Of a stretch of 64,000 nt of DNA, positions 2,426-9,738 are shown one piece after another. The notes below the pieces were generated by a model. It had not been told where the DNA came from and searched no databases. It worked only from the letters and a program-made list of their open reading frames with translations. Origin of the DNA: Eubacterium sp. (GTDB lineage: Bacteria; Bacillota; Clostridia; Lachnospirales; Lachnospiraceae); NCBI GenBank assembly GCA_017433825.1, contig JAFRGL010000008.1, forward strand, positions 62,001 to 126,000, written 5' to 3'. The number at the start of each line of letters is the position of its first letter. Position 1 is the stretch's first letter. A program made the position numbers and the translations under genes.

Positions 2426-3400
2426 TTAAATCAGAAATGAAACAATAAGCGCTGCCGCGCCAAGTACAGCCAGAAGGATAATACTGGTGCCGTACATCAG
2501 TTTACAGGAAGCCGGGATATCCTTAGGCTTCGGCTCCCGGTCCGGATCGCCCATGGTGGGCTTTTTGTAAAGCTGTCCGAAATAGCTGGCGTCGCCGCCG
2601 AGGCGGATATGCAGGGCGCCGGCGCAGACCGATTCCGTCTGGGCCGAATTCGGGCTCGAATGCTTCCTTCTGTCGCGTTTCCAGATGCGGAAGGCGTTTT
2701 TCGCGTCGAAGCCTGTCAGCTTTGCCGCCGCAATCATCCCCAGGGCCGAAAGCCGGGCCGGGATGAAATTCGCCACGTCGTCCGTTTTCGCGGAACACCG
2801 TCCGAAATACAGGTATTTGTCATTCTTGTAGCCCACCATGGAATCCATGGTATTGATGGCCTTGTAGACAAAACCGCCCACCGGTCCGAAGATAATCATC
2901 CAGAACAGCGGTGCGATGACGCCGTCCGACGTATTCTCGGCCACAGTTTCCACCGCTGCCTTTATCACCTGCTCTTCCGTCAGCTGATCCGTATCCCGGC
3001 CTACCAGCATGCCCACCTGCTTCCTGGCGGCTTCAAGTCTGCCTTTCCTTAAGCGGACATACACTTTCATGGCCTCGTCTTTTAAGCATTTCGCCGCGAA
3101 AATCTGCCAGCACATGAAGCAGCAGACGGCAAAATACAGCCAGATATTGACTTTCCGGCAGAAAAACAGGATGAAAAAGGGAATCAGGCCGGAACAGGCC
3201 GCCACAATGGCCGTCATGATGCAGCCCGCTTTGAATTCGCCTTTTTCATCTGCGGGAAACCTCTTTCTTAATACCTTTTCCAGGAAGGAAATTGCCTTCC
3301 CGATGAGGATGACCGGGTGGGGGAACCTGGCCGGATCCCCCAGAAAACAGTCGATAACAAATCCCGCAGCAATTGCGGCAATCGTCAGCTTAACGTACAT
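2426..3400 (-). CDS. cbiB: Adenosylcobinamide-phosphate synthase
   Basis: A 324-residue polytopic membrane protein. It has the family motif FLGDPARFPHPVILIGK at residues 19-35, the ETVAENTSDGVIAPLFW segment and GDASYFGQLYKKPTMGD near the C-terminus. CbiB attaches aminopropanol or its phosphate to the propionate side chain of the corrin ring in the membrane. Hydrophobic segments lie at about 5-20, 60-100, 165-185 and at the extreme C-terminus. It sits between the second lipoprotein gene (20 nt away) and cobD in the same operon. Confidence 0.95.
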   Translation of the reverse strand: MYVKLTIAAIAAGFVIDCFLGDPARFPHPVILIGKAISFLEKVLRKRFPADEKGEFKAGCIMTAIVAACSGLIPFFILFFCRKVNIWLYFAVCCFMCWQIFAAKCLKDEAMKVYVRLRKGRLEAARKQVGMLVGRDTDQLTEEQVIKAAVETVAENTSDGVIAPLFWMIIFGPVGGFVYKAINTMDSMVGYKNDKYLYFGRCSAKTDDVANFIPARLSALGMIAAAKLTGFDAKNAFRIWKRDRRKHSSPNSAQTESVCAGALHIRLGGDASYFGQLYKKPTMGDPDREPKPKDIPASCKLMYGTSIILLAVLGAAALIVSFLI

Positions 3401-3420: not shown

Positions 3421-3999
3421 TTATTCCATCGGCACTACGTCTGATACGGAAACCTTGTGGTCGTACCAGGTGCCCTTGGTGCCTACAAGGGCCACGTCAA
3501 ATTCCTCGTCCAGTACCGGAACGGGGATATCAAAGCCGTATACTTCATCGGACAGTCCGTCGGAATAGGTTACCGTATCCAGAGTGGGCTCAAGGATAAC
3601 CGCGCCGGGCTTCTGGGCGTCTTCGGCAAGGCCCTGATACAGGTTAACGATGCCTTTGGCCACCAGGCTTACATGGATAGTCATCTGTCCGTTTTCCACC
3701 GTCAGTACGCCGCGGCCTTCATTGGCCTCGTTGACGTGGAACATGGAGCTGTCGGTATCGAACTTGGCGGAATACACGCCGTCTTCCAGTCCGTAGGGAT
3801 TCACAGCGGCTTCGCTGGTTGCCGACACGGCAGAAGCCTCGCTTACGGCACTTTCCGCTTCTGAAACTGCGGAAGATACCACGCTTTCACTCTTTGTCTC
3901 CGCCGCTGATGAGCTTTCCTTCGCTCCGCCGCCGGAACAGCCGGCAAGCAGCATGGCAGCACAGACTGCAGCAATTACAACTGCAACACTTTTTTTCAT
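3421..3999 (-). CDS. Surface lipoprotein, possible metal/tetrapyrrole-binding partner of the tandem CbiK protein
   Basis: About 192 residues. The start at 3999 is chosen because AGGAGG (4009-4014) is 9 nt away; an in-frame ATG at 4005 is only 3 nt from it. The signal peptide KKSVAVVIAAVCAAMLLAGC is a clear lipobox (LAGC), followed by a Ser/Ala/Glu linker. The mature domain starts at about GLEDGVYSAKFDTDSSMF and continues as a beta-rich domain with LTVENGQMTIHVSL and a final GTKGTWYDHKVSV. From memory, similar clostridial lipoproteins are labelled iron transporter, and the strand pattern recalls NEAT-like beta-sandwiches; neither was checked. Its place in the B12-riboswitch operon, after the chelatase lipoprotein, suggests capture of a metal or tetrapyrrole at the cell surface. 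Confidence 0.7.
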   Translation of the reverse strand: MKKSVAVVIAAVCAAMLLAGCSGGGAKESSSAAETKSESVVSSAVSEAESAVSEASAVSATSEAAVNPYGLEDGVYSAKFDTDSSMFHVNEANEGRGVLTVENGQMTIHVSLVAKGIVNLYQGLAEDAQKPGAVILEPTLDTVTYSDGLSDEVYGFDIPVPVLDEEFDVALVGTKGTWYDHKVSVSDVVPME

Positions 4000-4030
4000 T
4001 TTCATTTTCCTCCTGCTATTTATAATAAGC

Positions 4031-4075
4031 AAAAACGGCTGCAGCGACAACCGGGAATGTGTATCGCTGCAGCCG
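4031..4075 (-). terminator. Intrinsic terminator between the tandem-CbiK gene and the rest of the cobalamin operon
   Basis: A perfect 12-bp inverted repeat (CGGCTGCAGCGA at 4036-4047, TCGCTGCAGCCG at 4064-4075) followed, reading the minus strand, by TTTTT (4031-4035). It lies after the chelatase stop at 4092 and before the next gene's ribosome binding site. Partial termination here would give more transcript for the lipoprotein chelatase than for the biosynthetic genes. Confidence 0.8.
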
Positions 4076-4091
4076 TAATGTCCTTCAGATA

Positions 4092-6383
4092 TTACTGAAT
4101 GCTGTCAATGGCTGCCTGGGTATGAGCAACATAAAGTGCTTCAACATCGGCAATACGGCCAAGACCGGAAATCTGGCATTCAATGCCTTCGAAATATCCG
4201 GATGCGCCAAACTGGCTGATCCAGGATTCTTCGTCCTCAACATCCGCCATGTCGTTGTTCGCATGGTCGCCTGCAACAACCATCAGGGGCCGCATGATTA
4301 CTTTCTTGTATCCGGCGGCATGAACGGCTTCGATGATGTTCTCACATGCAGTCTCTTCCGGCTCGCCCTCTACGGTACCGATGAAGACGTTCTTGTAACC
4401 AAGCTCGTCCATCTGGGTCTGCATCTGGCTGTAGGAAACCTTGGCAACATGGGCAGTACCATGGCCCATGAATACGAAGGCAACTCCTGCTGCTTCGGCT
4501 TCTTCAAGGGAAGCAAGGTTGGCTGCCTTTACGGCTTCCGCGGTAATGGCTTCGGCAACGGCTTTCTTGTCAGCATTGATAACGGTGGCGTCGGAACCGA
4601 CTTCACCCAGAAGGGGTTCTGCAACTACACAAGTCTCAAACTTGCCTTCATACTCTGCAAGGGCTTCGCAAAGCTCATCATACTCGGCACCATGCATCAG
4701 ATGGGTGGGCTGTACAACGAGGGTTTTTACATTGTTTGCTACAGCACGGTCAAGGGCCTGCTTTACGTTGTCGATATGCTCGTCATCACGGGCCTGTACA
4801 TGGTTGATGATAATCTGGGCGGTAAACGCTCTGCGTACGGACCAGTCCGGGAAAGCAGCAGCGATGGCATCTTCGATGCCCTTGATATCAGCCGCACGGC
4901 TGCTGTTGAAGGAAGTACCGAAGCTTACCACCAGGATTTCCTTCTCACCGATTTCGTCCGCGTTTCTGGGATCGTCTTCGCTGGCATCACCGGTATCTCT
5001 TCCGAAGTAATCGGGATCGGCTTCTTCGCCTTCAACCATTTCCTTCTGCTCATCGGTCAGGGCATCCCAGGCAGCTTTTGCGGCTGCACACTGGGCATCG
5101 GTTTCTTCTGTCCATTCCTGGACATAGATGGCGTCAATGAGGTTGGCAACGTTCTTCGCGGCAAGGCTTTCGATAGCTGCTGCGGTATGCGCTACATAGA
5201 TGTCCTCAATGGCAGCAATGCGGCCAAGGCCGGAGATCTGGCACTCAACGCCTTCGAAATAACCTGAAGCGCCAAACTGGCTCAGCCAGGACTCTTCATC
5301 CTCAGGATCAGCCATATCGTTGTTGGCATGGTCGCCTGCAACAACCATCAGGGGCCGCATGATAACCTTCTTGTATCCGGCAGCATGAACGGCTTCGATG
5401 ATGTTCTCACATGCAGTTTCTTCCGGCTCACCCTCTACAGTGCCGATGAAGACATTCTTGTAACCAAGCTCGTCCATCTGGGTCTGCATCTGGCTGTAGG
5501 AAACCTTGGCAACATGGGCAGTACCATGGCCCATGAATACGAAGGCAACGCCTGCTGCTTCGGCTTCTTCAAGGGAGGCAAAGTTGGCTGCCTTTACGGC
5601 TTCCGCAGTAATGGCTTCTGCAACAGCCTTCTTGTCTTCGTTGATAACGGTGGCATCGGAACCTACTTCACCGAGAAGCGGCTCTGCAACTACGCAGATT
5701 TCAAACTTGTCGGCATACTCTTCCAGCGCTTCGCAAAGCTCGTCATACTCAGCACCATGCATCAGATGGGTGGGCTGTACAACCAGGGTCTTTACATTGT
5801 TCGCAACGGCACGCTCAAGAGCCTGTTTTACGTTGTCGATGTGCTCATCGTCACGGGCCTGTACGTGGTTGATGATGATCTGGGCGGTAAACGCTCTGCG
5901 TACGGACCAGTCCGGATAAGCGGCGGCAAGAGCATCTTCAATACCCTTGATGTCAGCCGCTCGGCTGTCATTGAAGGAAGTACCGAAGCTTACCACCAGG
6001 ATTTCCTTCTCGCCGATACCGTCAGCATTTAAGGGATCATCCTGGCTGGCATCACCGGTATCTCTTCCGAAATAATCGGGATCGGCTTCTTCGCCTTCAA
6101 CCAGTTCCTTCTGCGCGTCAGTCAGGGCGTCCCAGCCTGCCTTGGCGGCTGCGCACTGGGCGTCGGTTTCTTCTGTCCATTCCTGAACATAGATGGCATC
6201 GATAAGGGCAGCAACTTCGTCAGCTGCTTCCTGATCGGTCTTTTCGCCTGCAGATGCCGCAGAAGAAGCAGATGCCGCTTCAGCGCTGCTGCTGCTCGTT
6301 GCAGCCGGCTCGTTTTTGCCGCAGCCTGCGAAAAGAGATGCGACCATGACTGCTGCGGTCAGCAGTGCAAGTCCTTTTTTCAT
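4092..6383 (-). CDS. Lipoprotein with two tandem CbiK-type sirohydrochlorin cobaltochelatase domains
   Basis: A 763-residue protein with signal peptide MKKGLALLTAAVMVASLFAGC (lipobox LFAGC, lipidated Cys21) and a Ser/Ala linker to about residue 55. Two nearly identical units follow (about 60-405 and 415-760, offset 355 residues). Each has a helical lead-in with YVQEWTEETDAQC, then a full CbiK domain starting EILVVSFGTSF. Both predicted metal-binding histidines are kept in each unit: MGHGT (H286, H641) and VVAGDHANND (H352, H707). The CbiK family inserts Co2+ (or Fe2+) into sirohydrochlorin; exported forms are known in Desulfovibrio (CbiK-P) with suspected roles in metal or haem traffic. Here the enzyme would be anchored outside the membrane, away from the cytoplasmic corrin pathway. 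AGGAGG lies 8 nt before the ATG. It is the first gene after the cobalamin riboswitch. Confidence 0.9.
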   Translation of the reverse strand: MKKGLALLTAAVMVASLFAGCGKNEPAATSSSSAEAASASSAASAGEKTDQEAADEVAALIDAIYVQEWTEETDAQCAAAKAGWDALTDAQKELVEGEEADPDYFGRDTGDASQDDPLNADGIGEKEILVVSFGTSFNDSRAADIKGIEDALAAAYPDWSVRRAFTAQIIINHVQARDDEHIDNVKQALERAVANNVKTLVVQPTHLMHGAEYDELCEALEEYADKFEICVVAEPLLGEVGSDATVINEDKKAVAEAITAEAVKAANFASLEEAEAAGVAFVFMGHGTAHVAKVSYSQMQTQMDELGYKNVFIGTVEGEPEETACENIIEAVHAAGYKKVIMRPLMVVAGDHANNDMADPEDEESWLSQFGASGYFEGVECQISGLGRIAAIEDIYVAHTAAAIESLAAKNVANLIDAIYVQEWTEETDAQCAAAKAAWDALTDEQKEMVEGEEADPDYFGRDTGDASEDDPRNADEIGEKEILVVSFGTSFNSSRAADIKGIEDAIAAAFPDWSVRRAFTAQIIINHVQARDDEHIDNVKQALDRAVANNVKTLVVQPTHLMHGAEYDELCEALAEYEGKFETCVVAEPLLGEVGSDATVINADKKAVAEAITAEAVKAANLASLEEAEAAGVAFVFMGHGTAHVAKVSYSQMQTQMDELGYKNVFIGTVEGEPEETACENIIEAVHAAGYKKVIMRPLMVVAGDHANNDMADVEDEESWISQFGASGYFEGIECQISGLGRIADVEALYVAHTQAAIDSIQ
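4104..5141 (-). repeat. Tandem gene-internal repeat, copy 2 (second CbiK unit)
   Basis: Codons 415-760 of the same gene, matching copy 1 over the entire unit including the helical lead-in before the chelatase fold. Both copies keep the two predicted metal-ligand histidines, so neither looks decayed. Confidence 0.9.
5169..6206 (-). repeat. Tandem gene-internal repeat, copy 1 (first CbiK unit)
   Basis: Codons 60-405 of the chelatase lipoprotein. Nucleotide and protein sequence repeat at a constant offset of 1065 bp; differences are mostly single substitutions (for example S-Q-D-D versus S-E-D-D in the lead-in). Such close identity indicates recent duplication or ongoing gene conversion between the halves. 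Confidence 0.9.
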
Positions 6384-6529: not shown

Positions 6530-6562
6530 AAAAAAAACCTTCCGCCGTAGAAAGGCGAAAGG
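6530..6562 (-). terminator. Expression-platform terminator of the cobalamin riboswitch
   Basis: Reading the minus strand, a 9-bp stem (CCTTTCGCC / GGCGGAAGG, one G-T pair) at 6538-6562 with a 7-nt loop is followed by eight T (6530-6537). It lies between the B12 box and the chelatase start codon, where an attenuator of a transcription-stopping riboswitch would be. The remaining untranslated stretch 6384-6529 shows no gene. Confidence 0.8.
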
Positions 6563-6842: not shown

Positions 6843-6871
6843 ATTATGACATAACCCCTCTGCCTTGTCAA
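6843..6871 (-). promoter_or_regulatory. Promoter of the cobalamin operon
   Basis: On the minus strand TTGACA (6866-6871) and CATAAT (6843-6848) are separated by 17 nt, placing the transcript start near 6836, exactly at the 5' side of the riboswitch. Confidence 0.8.
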
Positions 6872-7157: not shown

Positions 7158-9623
7158 TTACATTGATGATGCTTTAACCGATGTTCTGACTTCCTTTGTC
7201 AGGCGGCTTGCTTCCTTATATTTCTTAAAGAACAGGTTGTAGATTATTATAATAAGGAAGATTACCGCAACGATGACACCGACTGCATTGCCCCGGCCTG
7301 CTGCCAGATTGCCGAACTGGGTAATCATAAGAGCGATTACGTAGGCAAATCCGCACTGCCAGCCGATGGCAAACCAGGTCCATTTCGGACTGTTCATCTC
7401 TCTCTTGATAGCACCGATGGCGGCAAAGCAGGGAGCACAAAGCAGATTGAACACCAGGAAGGAGAAGCCGGTAACGCCTGTAAAGGCCATTGCCAGCGCT
7501 GCATGCGCGCTTGCGCCTCCGCCCCCGTACAGGACGCCCATGGTTCCCACGATGTTCTCCTTGGCGACAAGGCCGGTGATGGTTGCCACCGTTGCCTGCC
7601 AGTTGCCCCACCCCAACGGGGCAAAGATCCAGGAAATCGCGCTTCCCACAGTGGCCAGGATAGAAAACTGAAGTTCCTCCCCGGCCAGCATCCTGAAGGT
7701 GCCGTCCACGGTTCCGAAATTGCTCAGGAACCAGATGACTATGGTAGAAAGAAGAATGATGGTTCCGGCTTTTTTGATGAAGGACCAGCCCCTCTCCCAC
7801 ATGGAACGCAATACGTTTTTCACAGTGGGAAGGTGGTAGGCCGGGAGCTCCATAACGAAGGGTGCCGGGTCCCCGGAAAACAGTTTTGTCTTTTTCAGGA
7901 TAATACCCGAAATTACGATGGCCGCTACGCCGATGAAATAGGCGCTGACGGAAATCAGGGCCGAGCCGCCGAAAATCGCGCCGGCAACCATGCCGATAAA
8001 GGGCAGCTTCGCTCCGCAGGGGATGAACGTAGTGGTAATAATGGTCATCCGGCGGTCGCGCTCATTTTCAATGGTACGGCTTGCCATAATGCCGGGAACG
8101 CCGCAGCCGGTGCCCACCAGCATGGGAATGAAGGATTTACCGGATAATCCGAACCTTCTGAAAATCCTGTCCAGTACGAAAGCGATTCTGGCCATGTAGC
8201 CGCAGGCTTCCAGGAATGCCAGCAGCAGGAACAGCACCAGCATCTGCGGTACGAAGCCGATGACGGCGCCGACACCGCCGATGATGCCGTCCAGTATCAG
8301 GCCCTTCAGCCACTCGGCAGTGTTTGCCTTCTCCAGCGCTTCTCCCACCACATCGGGAATACTGCGCACCCAGACGCCGTAAGCGGCCGGATCCGGTTCT
8401 TCGCCTTCGTATTTCTCATAGACGGCCACCGCGTCGGTCAGCTCGTCATATGTATAGGTAACTTCTTCAATATTCAGTGTTTCTTCGTCTTCCAGCTCAT
8501 AATCCGCCGTGCTGCCGGCCGGAACGGATGCATATCCGGACTTCACGTATTCCACATCCGGCTCTTCAGGAAGACCGATGAAGGCGTCAATGACGTTGGA
8601 AGCCTCTCCGTATTCTTCCGATGCTTCCCCGTAAGCGGCAGAACCGATACCGAACAGATGCCAGCCGTCGCCGAACAGGCCGTCATTCGCCCAGTCGGTG
8701 AGCTTTGTGCCCGGGGCGGAAGAGCTCATGGCGATGAAATACACCAGGAACATAATCGCCGCGAAAATCGGCAGGCCAAGTATCCTGTTGGTAACCACCT
8801 TGTCGATTTTGTCGGAAACGGTGAGCGCGCCGGCATTTTTCTTGTGATAACAGGATTTGATGACGTTCGCGATATAAACATACCGCTCATTGGTGATGAT
8901 GCTTTCCGCATCGTCGTCCAGCTCTTCTTCTGCAGCCTGGATATCCTTCTCAATATGAGCCATTACATCAGCGGGGATGTGCATCTGCTCCAGGACTTTT
9001 TCATCCCGCTCGAAAATCTTCACCGCGTACCAGCGCTGCTGCTCTTCGGGCATTTCATGCACCGCAGCCTCTTCGATGTGGGCCAGGGCGTGTTCCACTA
9101 CGCCTGAGAACCGGTGCTGCGGCACGGTTCTGCCGTTTTTCGCCGCATCGATGGCGGCTTCCACAACTTCCATAACGCCGTTGCCTTTCAGGGCGGAAAT
9201 TTCCACGATTTTGCAGCCCAGCTGCCTGCCCAGCTCCTCCGTGTTTATTTTGTCGCCGTTTTTCTTTACGACGTCCATCATGTTCACGGCGCAGACCACC
9301 GGGATTCCCAGCTCGGTCAGCTGGGTGGTCAGATAGAGGTTTCTCTCCAGGTTTGTGCCGTCGATAATATTTAAAATAGCGTCCGGCCGTTCGCCGATAA
9401 GGTAATTCCTGGCTACCACTTCCTCCAGTGTATAAGGGGAAAGGGAATAAATGCCGGGAAGGTCGGTGATGGTCACGCCGTCGTGTTTCCTTAATTTGCC
9501 TTCCTTTTTCTCAACCGTAACGCCGGGCCAGTTTCCTACGAACTGGTTCGCGCCGGTGAGCGCGTTGAAAAGTGTTGTTTTGCCGCTGTTGGGGTTGCCT
9601 GCCAGGGCGATTTTGATGTCCAT
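7158..9623 (-). CDS. feoB: Ferrous iron transporter B
   Basis: 821 residues from the ATG at 9623 (MDIKIALAGN). This start is preferred to the longer frame beginning at 9701, which would run through an operator-like palindrome. The N-terminal G protein has G1 GNPNSGKTT (9-17), GVTVEKKEG, DLPGIYSLS, NMMD and SALKG. The membrane domain includes VGTGCGVPGIMASR and IPCGAKLPF, with the second gate half near the C-terminus. FeoB takes up Fe2+ across the cytoplasmic membrane. The loop after the first membrane helix (about residues 300-445) is about 145 residues, clearly longer than the roughly 50 of E. coli FeoB, and is acidic and Tyr-rich. Two feoA genes lie upstream. Confidence 0.97.
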   Translation of the reverse strand: MDIKIALAGNPNSGKTTLFNALTGANQFVGNWPGVTVEKKEGKLRKHDGVTITDLPGIYSLSPYTLEEVVARNYLIGERPDAILNIIDGTNLERNLYLTTQLTELGIPVVCAVNMMDVVKKNGDKINTEELGRQLGCKIVEISALKGNGVMEVVEAAIDAAKNGRTVPQHRFSGVVEHALAHIEEAAVHEMPEEQQRWYAVKIFERDEKVLEQMHIPADVMAHIEKDIQAAEEELDDDAESIITNERYVYIANVIKSCYHKKNAGALTVSDKIDKVVTNRILGLPIFAAIMFLVYFIAMSSSAPGTKLTDWANDGLFGDGWHLFGIGSAAYGEASEEYGEASNVIDAFIGLPEEPDVEYVKSGYASVPAGSTADYELEDEETLNIEEVTYTYDELTDAVAVYEKYEGEEPDPAAYGVWVRSIPDVVGEALEKANTAEWLKGLILDGIIGGVGAVIGFVPQMLVLFLLLAFLEACGYMARIAFVLDRIFRRFGLSGKSFIPMLVGTGCGVPGIMASRTIENERDRRMTIITTTFIPCGAKLPFIGMVAGAIFGGSALISVSAYFIGVAAIVISGIILKKTKLFSGDPAPFVMELPAYHLPTVKNVLRSMWERGWSFIKKAGTIILLSTIVIWFLSNFGTVDGTFRMLAGEELQFSILATVGSAISWIFAPLGWGNWQATVATITGLVAKENIVGTMGVLYGGGGASAHAALAMAFTGVTGFSFLVFNLLCAPCFAAIGAIKREMNSPKWTWFAIGWQCGFAYVIALMITQFGNLAAGRGNAVGVIVAVIFLIIIIYNLFFKKYKEASRLTKEVRTSVKASSM

Positions 9624-9649
9624 TCTTCTTTTGCCTTTCTGGTTCCGTT

Positions 9650-9667
9650 GGTTAGCTTTGGCTAACC
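9650..9667. promoter_or_regulatory. DtxR-like palindromic operator in front of feoB
   Basis: GGTTAGCTTTGGCTAACC is a perfect palindrome with 7-bp arms and a 4-nt centre. It lies 27 nt before the feoB ATG, in the feoA-feoB gap. It shares the TTAGC/GCTAA core with the boxes at 10220-10264, as expected for one metalloregulator of the DtxR/IdeR type. The regulator itself is not in the window. Confidence 0.65.
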
Positions 9668-9738
9668 TGTAATGCTTAGAAAAGACCGCGTACGCAGCCA
9701 TTCTTTAAAGATTATTGTGAGGGAAATGATGAAGGTTT

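Follow-up and report, generated by a model that had tools for sequence, protein, structure and literature searches.

Why should a bacterium that carries the genes of the corrin pathway place a CbiK-type chelatase on the outer side of its membrane? The question is raised by a gene at positions 4092–6383 (minus strand, as are all window features given below) of the window, by which we mean the whole analysed stretch of 64,000 nucleotides from Eubacterium sp. (Lachnospiraceae; assembly GCA_017433825.1, contig JAFRGL010000008.1, positions 62,001–126,000). Read from its ATG, and identified from the open reading frame (ORF) list, Pfam, phmmer and a profile scan, the gene encodes a predicted lipoprotein of 763 amino acids, a tandem exported CbiK. 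The answer proposed here, to which we assign a probability of about one half, is that it supplies the chelatase of a module that loads tetrapyrroles outside the cytoplasm and imports them for B12 synthesis. An earlier sequence-only reading had described the architecture of the gene, which is confirmed below, and had offered interpretations that are partly supported, with a possible role in processing external tetrapyrroles retained in our proposal; it had missed the NEAT-like next gene, the frequent ATP-binding cassette (ABC) importer, and the standing of the exported protein as the sole CbiK in many relatives.

The predicted exported chelatase

The N-terminus of the 763-residue ORF product, MKKGLALLTAAVMVASLFAGC, carries a lipoprotein-type signal, with the signal peptide comprising residues 1–21 (6321–6383) and the lipobox LFAGC, read in the sequence and found by a lipobox scan, at residues 17–21 (Cys21). 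Behind it stand two complete chelatase units, as had been claimed, with the CbiK family PF06180 matched at full length in two stretches for a total of 444 bits against a Pfam cut-off of 26.2. Unit 1 spans residues 126–405 (5169–6008; Pfam) and unit 2 residues 483–759 (4107–4937; boundaries from our own profile, with Pfam counting the second stretch), each preceded by a spacer segment that is placed by the repeat register and is probably helical (residues 56–125, 6009–6218, and residues 411–480, 4944–5153). The units repeat with a period of 355 residues and share 92% protein identity and 88% DNA identity over 353 aligned residues, with 82 of the 111 differing codons synonymous. They are mutual closest relatives in a quick tree (support 99), so the recent duplication or gene conversion suggested earlier fits, and a doubled chelatase may give each lipid anchor more active sites.

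Despite a full-length match to cytosolic CbiK (1qgo and 2xwp, which we take to be the Salmonella enzyme), the window protein is exported and lipid-anchored, has an extra spacer segment, two units and a NEAT-like partner, and falls under the cut-off of the NCBIfam equivalog NF047852 (SiroCoChCbiK), the whole tandem scoring 336.7 bits where 400 are required. The relatives of known structure found by phmmer were three PDB matches, 1qgo (CbiK), 9b86 (FetB) and 2xvx (putative chelatase). The similarity extends to the catalytic site, with His, Glu and His residues aligned with H145, E175 and H207 of Salmonella CbiK present in unit 1 by phmmer alignment and in both units by alignment of homologues, so that each unit keeps both of the metal-ligand histidines ascribed to it. 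The place of E175 in the site is our own alignment reading, and H145 and H207 are named as active-site histidines in PMC7689651.

Control by B12, likewise proposed from the sequence, is borne out by a full-length cobalamin riboswitch aptamer (RF00174; 6629–6830; 91.4 bits against an Rfam gathering score of 31.5). Upstream lies a promoter-like site, TTGACA-17-CATAAT (6843–6871; 11 of 12 positions, by consensus match only), and between the aptamer and the start codon a terminator-like hairpin with a T8 tail (6538–6562), a probable expression platform read from the sequence, in a stretch that folds with z = -4.9. This layout is as expected for what would be a transcription-terminating switch.

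Relatives and partner genes

Exported CbiK is widespread in gut and rumen Clostridia. A survey of named genomes with a unit-alignment profile confirmed at least 562 of 595 pattern matches, of which the best 80 loci were kept (L and G handles for loci and genomes are our own); being the best-scoring of at least 562, these lean toward close relatives, and they belong mostly to Lachnospiraceae and Oscillospiraceae of gut and rumen. Of the exported proteins, 80 have an intact start (the window's own and those of 79 loci, L104 being cut); 70 of these carry a lipobox and the other 10 an ordinary signal peptide recognised by eye, and a misread start was rejected on this count as the origin of the signal. 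The His/Glu/His set, at alignment positions 234, 265 and 300, is identical in all 87 exported units aligned (79 loci and the window with both its units; L104 omitted), with the loss of ligand histidines in relatives that the sequence-only reading had thought would tell against it not found. Since the catalytic residues never vary and the gene is almost confined to genomes with a corrin-ring gene, a simple cobalt store, another role suggested there, seems less probable.

The gene had also been called unusual, which holds for the tandem and not for export itself. Two CbiK units in one protein occur at 6 of the 80 closest loci (L059, L078, L088, L103, L114 and L119) and in 2 of the 75 carriers found in the family survey below, and the tandem was accordingly rejected as the main point. 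Single-unit homologues with the same signal, thought earlier to point to an ordinary cytoplasmic role, are the rule (74 of 80), yet they too are exported. In the quick tree the unit pairs of the window, L103, L114 and L119 are each mutual nearest relatives, which suggests that duplications or conversions there are lineage-specific, and those of L059, L078 and L088 are not resolved as such. A genus sibling (G001) has the order CbiK-companion-CbiK within one chain. Two adjoining exported CbiK genes, in separate frames of 493 and 562 amino acids, were seen at G108:C1:1337005–1339994, and downstream of the two-unit gene of L119 lies a CbiK-like frame (L119:12616–13244) without a signal at its start and cut by the contig end.

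In the window, the next gene encodes a NEAT-like companion lipoprotein (3421–4005; start taken at the ATG behind AGGAGG, the mechanical ORF of 209 amino acids beginning at 4050; conserved domain 3424–3810). A profile scan of the 80 loci found a homologous domain at 78, fused to CbiK in 34 and separate in 44, and none at L089 or at L070, the latter because the contig ends. Among the 76 companions that were aligned, from the window and 75 loci (omitting L072, L097 and L120, which is truncated), the Pfam family common to most is NEAT (PF05031), matched by 55 at E ≤ 10 with a best value of 1.7e-5; the next family is matched by 6. A PDB profile search placed NEAT chains first (E 0.05–0.2), with galectins among them, probably by chance. 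Many separate companions have a second domain, absent from that of the window. Of seven companions scanned with PF05031, six have a NEAT match at E ≤ 0.1 in one or other domain, L110 being the exception, and the second domain passes the cut-off in L123 only (34.5 against 32.8 bits), with L092 a near miss (32.1). Judged by its sequence, the companion domain is a divergent NEAT relative, with a likeness to Isd-type NEAT domains that is weak in the first domain; in contrast to these it is paired with a chelatase under B12 control. The companion gene of L093 (L093:8904–10781) joins the NEAT-like domain, by our own profile, to a second NEAT-type stretch seen by eye and a PF01497 binding protein, with no match to the Pfam NEAT model at E 0.001. 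At L065:11918–16705 a protein of 1595 residues has two weak copies of the NEAT-like domain.

Importer genes and the riboswitch recur at the related loci. Of the 65 loci with at least 5 kb of downstream sequence, 45 have a FecCD/BtuC-type permease no more than 6 kb downstream; the remaining 15 of the 80 were set aside. In the operon of G183, the single one scanned, the permease is nearest BtuC and the ATPase nearest a corrinoid ATPase among NCBIfam models, both far below cut-offs. A cobalamin riboswitch was found by Rfam upstream on the same strand at 22 of 25 loci (12 of 14 and 10 of 11; misses at L064, L084 and L073), these 25 being picked by length and upstream DNA rather than at random and including all six two-unit loci except L114.

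Distribution, the proposed module and its rivals

We searched 299 genomes of the family to which the window belongs, almost every one from a different genus, with CbiK, exported-CbiK, CbiD, companion, CbiX and CbiM profiles, taking E ≤ 1e-30 as a strong companion match and counting as short CbiM a match of E < 1e-20 whose open frame does not exceed 320 amino acids. The genome lists were tabulated by hand, with totals checked (171, 171 and 75) and the rows of positive genomes complete. Exported CbiK is carried by 75 genomes (G214 and G069 scored from contig-edge fragments), with a strong companion match in all 75 and in none of the 224 others, 29 of which have weaker matches. CbiD is present in 74 of the 75, the exception being G069 (89% complete), such that exported CbiK occurs in 74 of 171 CbiD-positive and 1 of 128 CbiD-negative genomes.

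This contrast bears most directly on corrinoid scavenging, the alternative that survives best, in which the exported CbiK fold and the NEAT-like protein would bind B12, cobinamide or other finished corrinoids at the cell surface and feed a BtuCD importer, as BtuG and BtuH, surface corrinoid-binding proteins of Bacteroidetes, reportedly do. The riboswitches of the window and the related loci, the likeness of the G183 permease and ATPase to corrinoid transporters, and the cobT, cobU and cobS genes downstream in many genomes would all suit it. Scavenging should, however, be common in genomes unable to make the ring, and the single carrier among 128 makes it less likely; furthermore, invariant His/Glu/His residues are unnecessary for mere binding, and the absence of another CbiK and of short CbiM, set out next, is left unexplained. 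We consider scavenging unlikely.

The reading of the gene as part of a loading and import module draws on the 48 of 75 carriers that have no other PF06180 match (sole carriers), all of which have CbiD and which include two single-contig assemblies, G237 and G197. Short CbiM at E < 1e-20 occurs in none of the 48, in a search that left other cobalt importers, HemH, and the early hem and cobA genes outside its scope, compared with 44 of 62 CbiD-positive genomes with only another, presumably cytosolic CbiK (Fisher p ~2e-16, uncorrected for kinship). G027 and G169 were placed by hand among the genomes with short CbiM, as both matches stop at position 202; excluding the two gives 42 of 62 (p ~3e-15). 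Carriers that also have another CbiK have short CbiM in 6 of 27 cases. CbiX was rejected as a hidden replacement, with the best PF01903 match in the 299 genomes (37.7 bits) lying within a CbiK; 34 sole carriers have any such match, with every listed one inside the exported CbiK itself in 26 and matches only at E 7e-4 to 1e-3 in 8. A PF01903 match of 22.1 bits lies in an 886-residue frame of G090, a genome without CbiK. Ten genomes have CbiD and no CbiK match (G009, G024, G046, G058, G100, G133, G148, G173, G213 and G298), with short CbiM in G024.

The early pathway was examined in 20 of the 48 sole carriers, picked for completeness, and in 4 controls that are examples out of the 62 other-CbiK genomes. 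CobN (PF02514) has no match in any of the 20. Precorrin-2 dehydrogenase has no real match in 17, with hem genes outside the search; of these, 13 have a match of 20–24 bits in a frame of ~460–500 amino acids, of a kind also seen in controls, and 4 have none. The dehydrogenase is present in all 4 controls and in the window's genome. In 15 of the 20, genes for a binding protein and for a permease, an ATPase or both are found next to CbiK or close by, with a labelled permease in 13; in G237 and G197 such a set adjoins the CbiD cluster instead. Eight sole carriers (G183, G295, G086, G199, G302, G190, G273 and G128) have CbiK, the companion, the importer and most cbi/cob genes, cbiL excepted, in this order in a single contiguous cluster.

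The lack of short CbiM would also favour cobalt capture, in which Co(II) would be bound by the protein outside the cell and handed to an importer, with the ring metallated inside by an unrecognised chelatase. The associated importers are, however, of the FecCD/BtuCD type with PF01497 binding proteins, a type that serves chelates and tetrapyrroles, and the partner resembles NEAT. Searches with PF06180, with PF01903 (convincing matches only) and, in the 20 genomes, with PF02514 gave no other cobaltochelatase, and capture alone leaves the chelation step unexplained. Whilst Salmonella CbiK does bind cobalt (PMC7689651), we think capture improbable, and more so than scavenging. Marginally weaker still is demetallation, in which a reverse chelatase would remove iron from heme or siroheme outside the cell as proposed for IhtB, a reading that could draw on the heme-binding FetB (9b86) among the three PDB matches, on NEAT relatives that are said to bind heme and on feoB immediately upstream (7158–9701), but is made less likely by the B12 riboswitches (22 of 25 loci), which together with the near-confinement to CbiD-positive genomes point to B12 and not iron.

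Taken together, the conserved residues, NEAT-like partner, chelate-type importer, B12 control, association with CbiD, and missing short CbiM, other CbiK and mostly precorrin-2 dehydrogenase suggest a module by which the ring is obtained outside, probably loaded with cobalt at the surface, and imported. At low B12 the riboswitch would permit transcription of the operon, and the lipid-anchored CbiK would act on tetrapyrroles outside the membrane, such as sirohydrochlorin or a similar ring that other microbes or the host provide. Cobalt would be the most likely metal inserted. CbiK is also described in a review as able to support iron supply to siroheme (PMC7689651). The NEAT-like lipoprotein would bind the tetrapyrrole for hand-over to a binding protein of family PF01497 and to an ABC importer of the BtuCD/FecCD type, with the product joining the cytoplasmic corrin pathway after the cobalt-insertion step. 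In many relatives the module may stand in for cytosolic CbiK and short-form CbiM, and for precorrin-2 dehydrogenase as well in most of the genomes tested for it; for the window's organism it would sit beside an internal route. The fullest version, which we put forward tentatively and with less confidence than the module itself, is that many gut Clostridia begin B12 synthesis from environmental tetrapyrroles. Surface CbiK would load these with cobalt before uptake, the metallated ring would be carried by the NEAT-like protein and taken in through a BtuCD-type transporter, and a single module under B12 control would take the place of cobalt import, cytosolic chelation and early ring synthesis.

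Several observations weigh against this proposal. The window's companion domain matches no Pfam family and stays below the PF05031 gathering score, and its profile comparison with seven other NEAT-like domains is weak (probability 5.9%). No importer adjoins the tandem CbiK in the window, nor CbiK in 5 of the 20 sole carriers. The window's genome (G000) has an internal route too, a signal-less CbiK beside a precorrin-2 dehydrogenase-like gene, from which it follows that the exported module would be additional in this organism; another B12 riboswitch of that genome (L008:453–1723, contig C18) precedes an unrelated permease of the binding-protein-dependent kind (PF00528) that may import cobalt or nickel. 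Three of the 20 sole carriers (G197, G128 and G273) have precorrin-2 dehydrogenase. In the sole-carrier CbiD regions read for cbiL (L199–L215), the gene is present in only 2 of 16 genomes (G237, L206; G124, L209), which the model does not explain, compared with its presence in two controls (L216 and L217) and in the window's genome (L004). To the limit already given for the CbiM search must be added a longer CbiM/NikM-like protein in 13 of the 48 sole carriers and weak CbiM matches in G193 (24.8 bits) and G097 (22.0 bits), in frames of ~200 amino acids. Additionally, all genome counts are raw and uncorrected for kinship.

Known systems resemble the proposed module in part. We take FetB (9b86) to be IhtB of Porphyromonas gingivalis, whose pathway an older paper is said to call an enigma, and 2xvx is presumably the periplasmic CbiK of Desulfovibrio. 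The latter is a single CbiK with a sequence match to the window protein, and we know of no lipoprotein-NEAT-importer module in Desulfovibrio. IhtB is described as a putative heme-binding lipoprotein with CbiK homology, thought to take iron from heme, and its iht system likewise has an ABC importer (PMC10913741). It is thus also an exported CbiK-like lipoprotein, but is discussed in the context of heme iron and of a bacterium that has an outer membrane and a TonB receptor, whereas the window combines a B12 riboswitch and a NEAT-like partner with cbi genes. P. gingivalis is also cited as lacking the steps to precorrin-2 (PMC6461909), and its genome encodes a CbiK-like lipoprotein (PMC10913741). 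Shelton et al. (PMC6461909) describe tetrapyrrole precursor salvagers, mostly Firmicutes and many host-associated, that keep the corrin pathway with the early steps missing, with dependence on 5-aminolevulinic acid shown in three species; predicted precorrin-2 salvage is quoted at 0.6% (PMC8123684). The available part of PMC6461909 names no uptake system for such salvagers, which have a corrin pathway without early steps, as the sole carriers may, and the present module is a candidate. In the open-licence literature we found no recognisable description of an exported CbiK in Clostridia or of this module.

The module is a concrete, widespread and testable candidate for how bacteria with a corrin pathway lacking its first steps obtain their starting ring. 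If the proposal is correct, metal insertion would be coupled to the uptake of a cofactor precursor. Tetrapyrroles would be added to the goods exchanged in the gut, with a metal-insertion step outside the cell. The module would also be a warning against scoring every CbiK as a cytoplasmic cobaltochelatase in predictions of B12 synthesis.

The cbi operon and further CbiK genes

The tandem CbiK gene heads a cbi operon. Beyond the companion gene follow cbiB (2426–3400; Pfam and NCBIfam), a cobD-like aminotransferase/decarboxylase gene (1358–2410; NCBIfam 286.9 bits, slightly below the cut-off of 290.55) and cbiD (217–1365; Pfam and NCBIfam), with the cbi genes running on past the start of the window. 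There a family scan found cbiL, cbiF, cbiG, cbiH and a cbiJ-cbiE-cbiT fusion on the same strand, followed by cbiA and cbiP, which were assigned by reading the sequence only. On the other side, feoB stands upstream of the riboswitch on the same strand.

The window's genome, of 2.6 Mb in 25 contigs, has one further CbiK, the signal-less protein noted above, of 261 amino acids on contig C8, which with 220.1 bits is also below the NF047852 cut-off. It lies in a row (L005:6381–10641) with the precorrin-2 dehydrogenase-like gene, an IsdE-like binding protein, which is nearest IsdE but far under the cut-off of that model, a FecCD permease and an ATPase; the row is possibly a second tetrapyrrole import cluster. 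At L007:1501–3211 (contig C5) a B12 riboswitch precedes a 452-residue frame, cut by the end of the locus, that has no Pfam match at E 0.001.

A further CbiK type, shorter, probably exported and delimited by score band, was counted in 26 family genomes (G166, G260 and G178, for example). It is the sole CbiK in 18 of these, 17 of which have CbiD and none short CbiM. Weak companion-profile matches occur in 24 of the 26, and all four members that were read (L024, L033, L040 and L042) show export signals.

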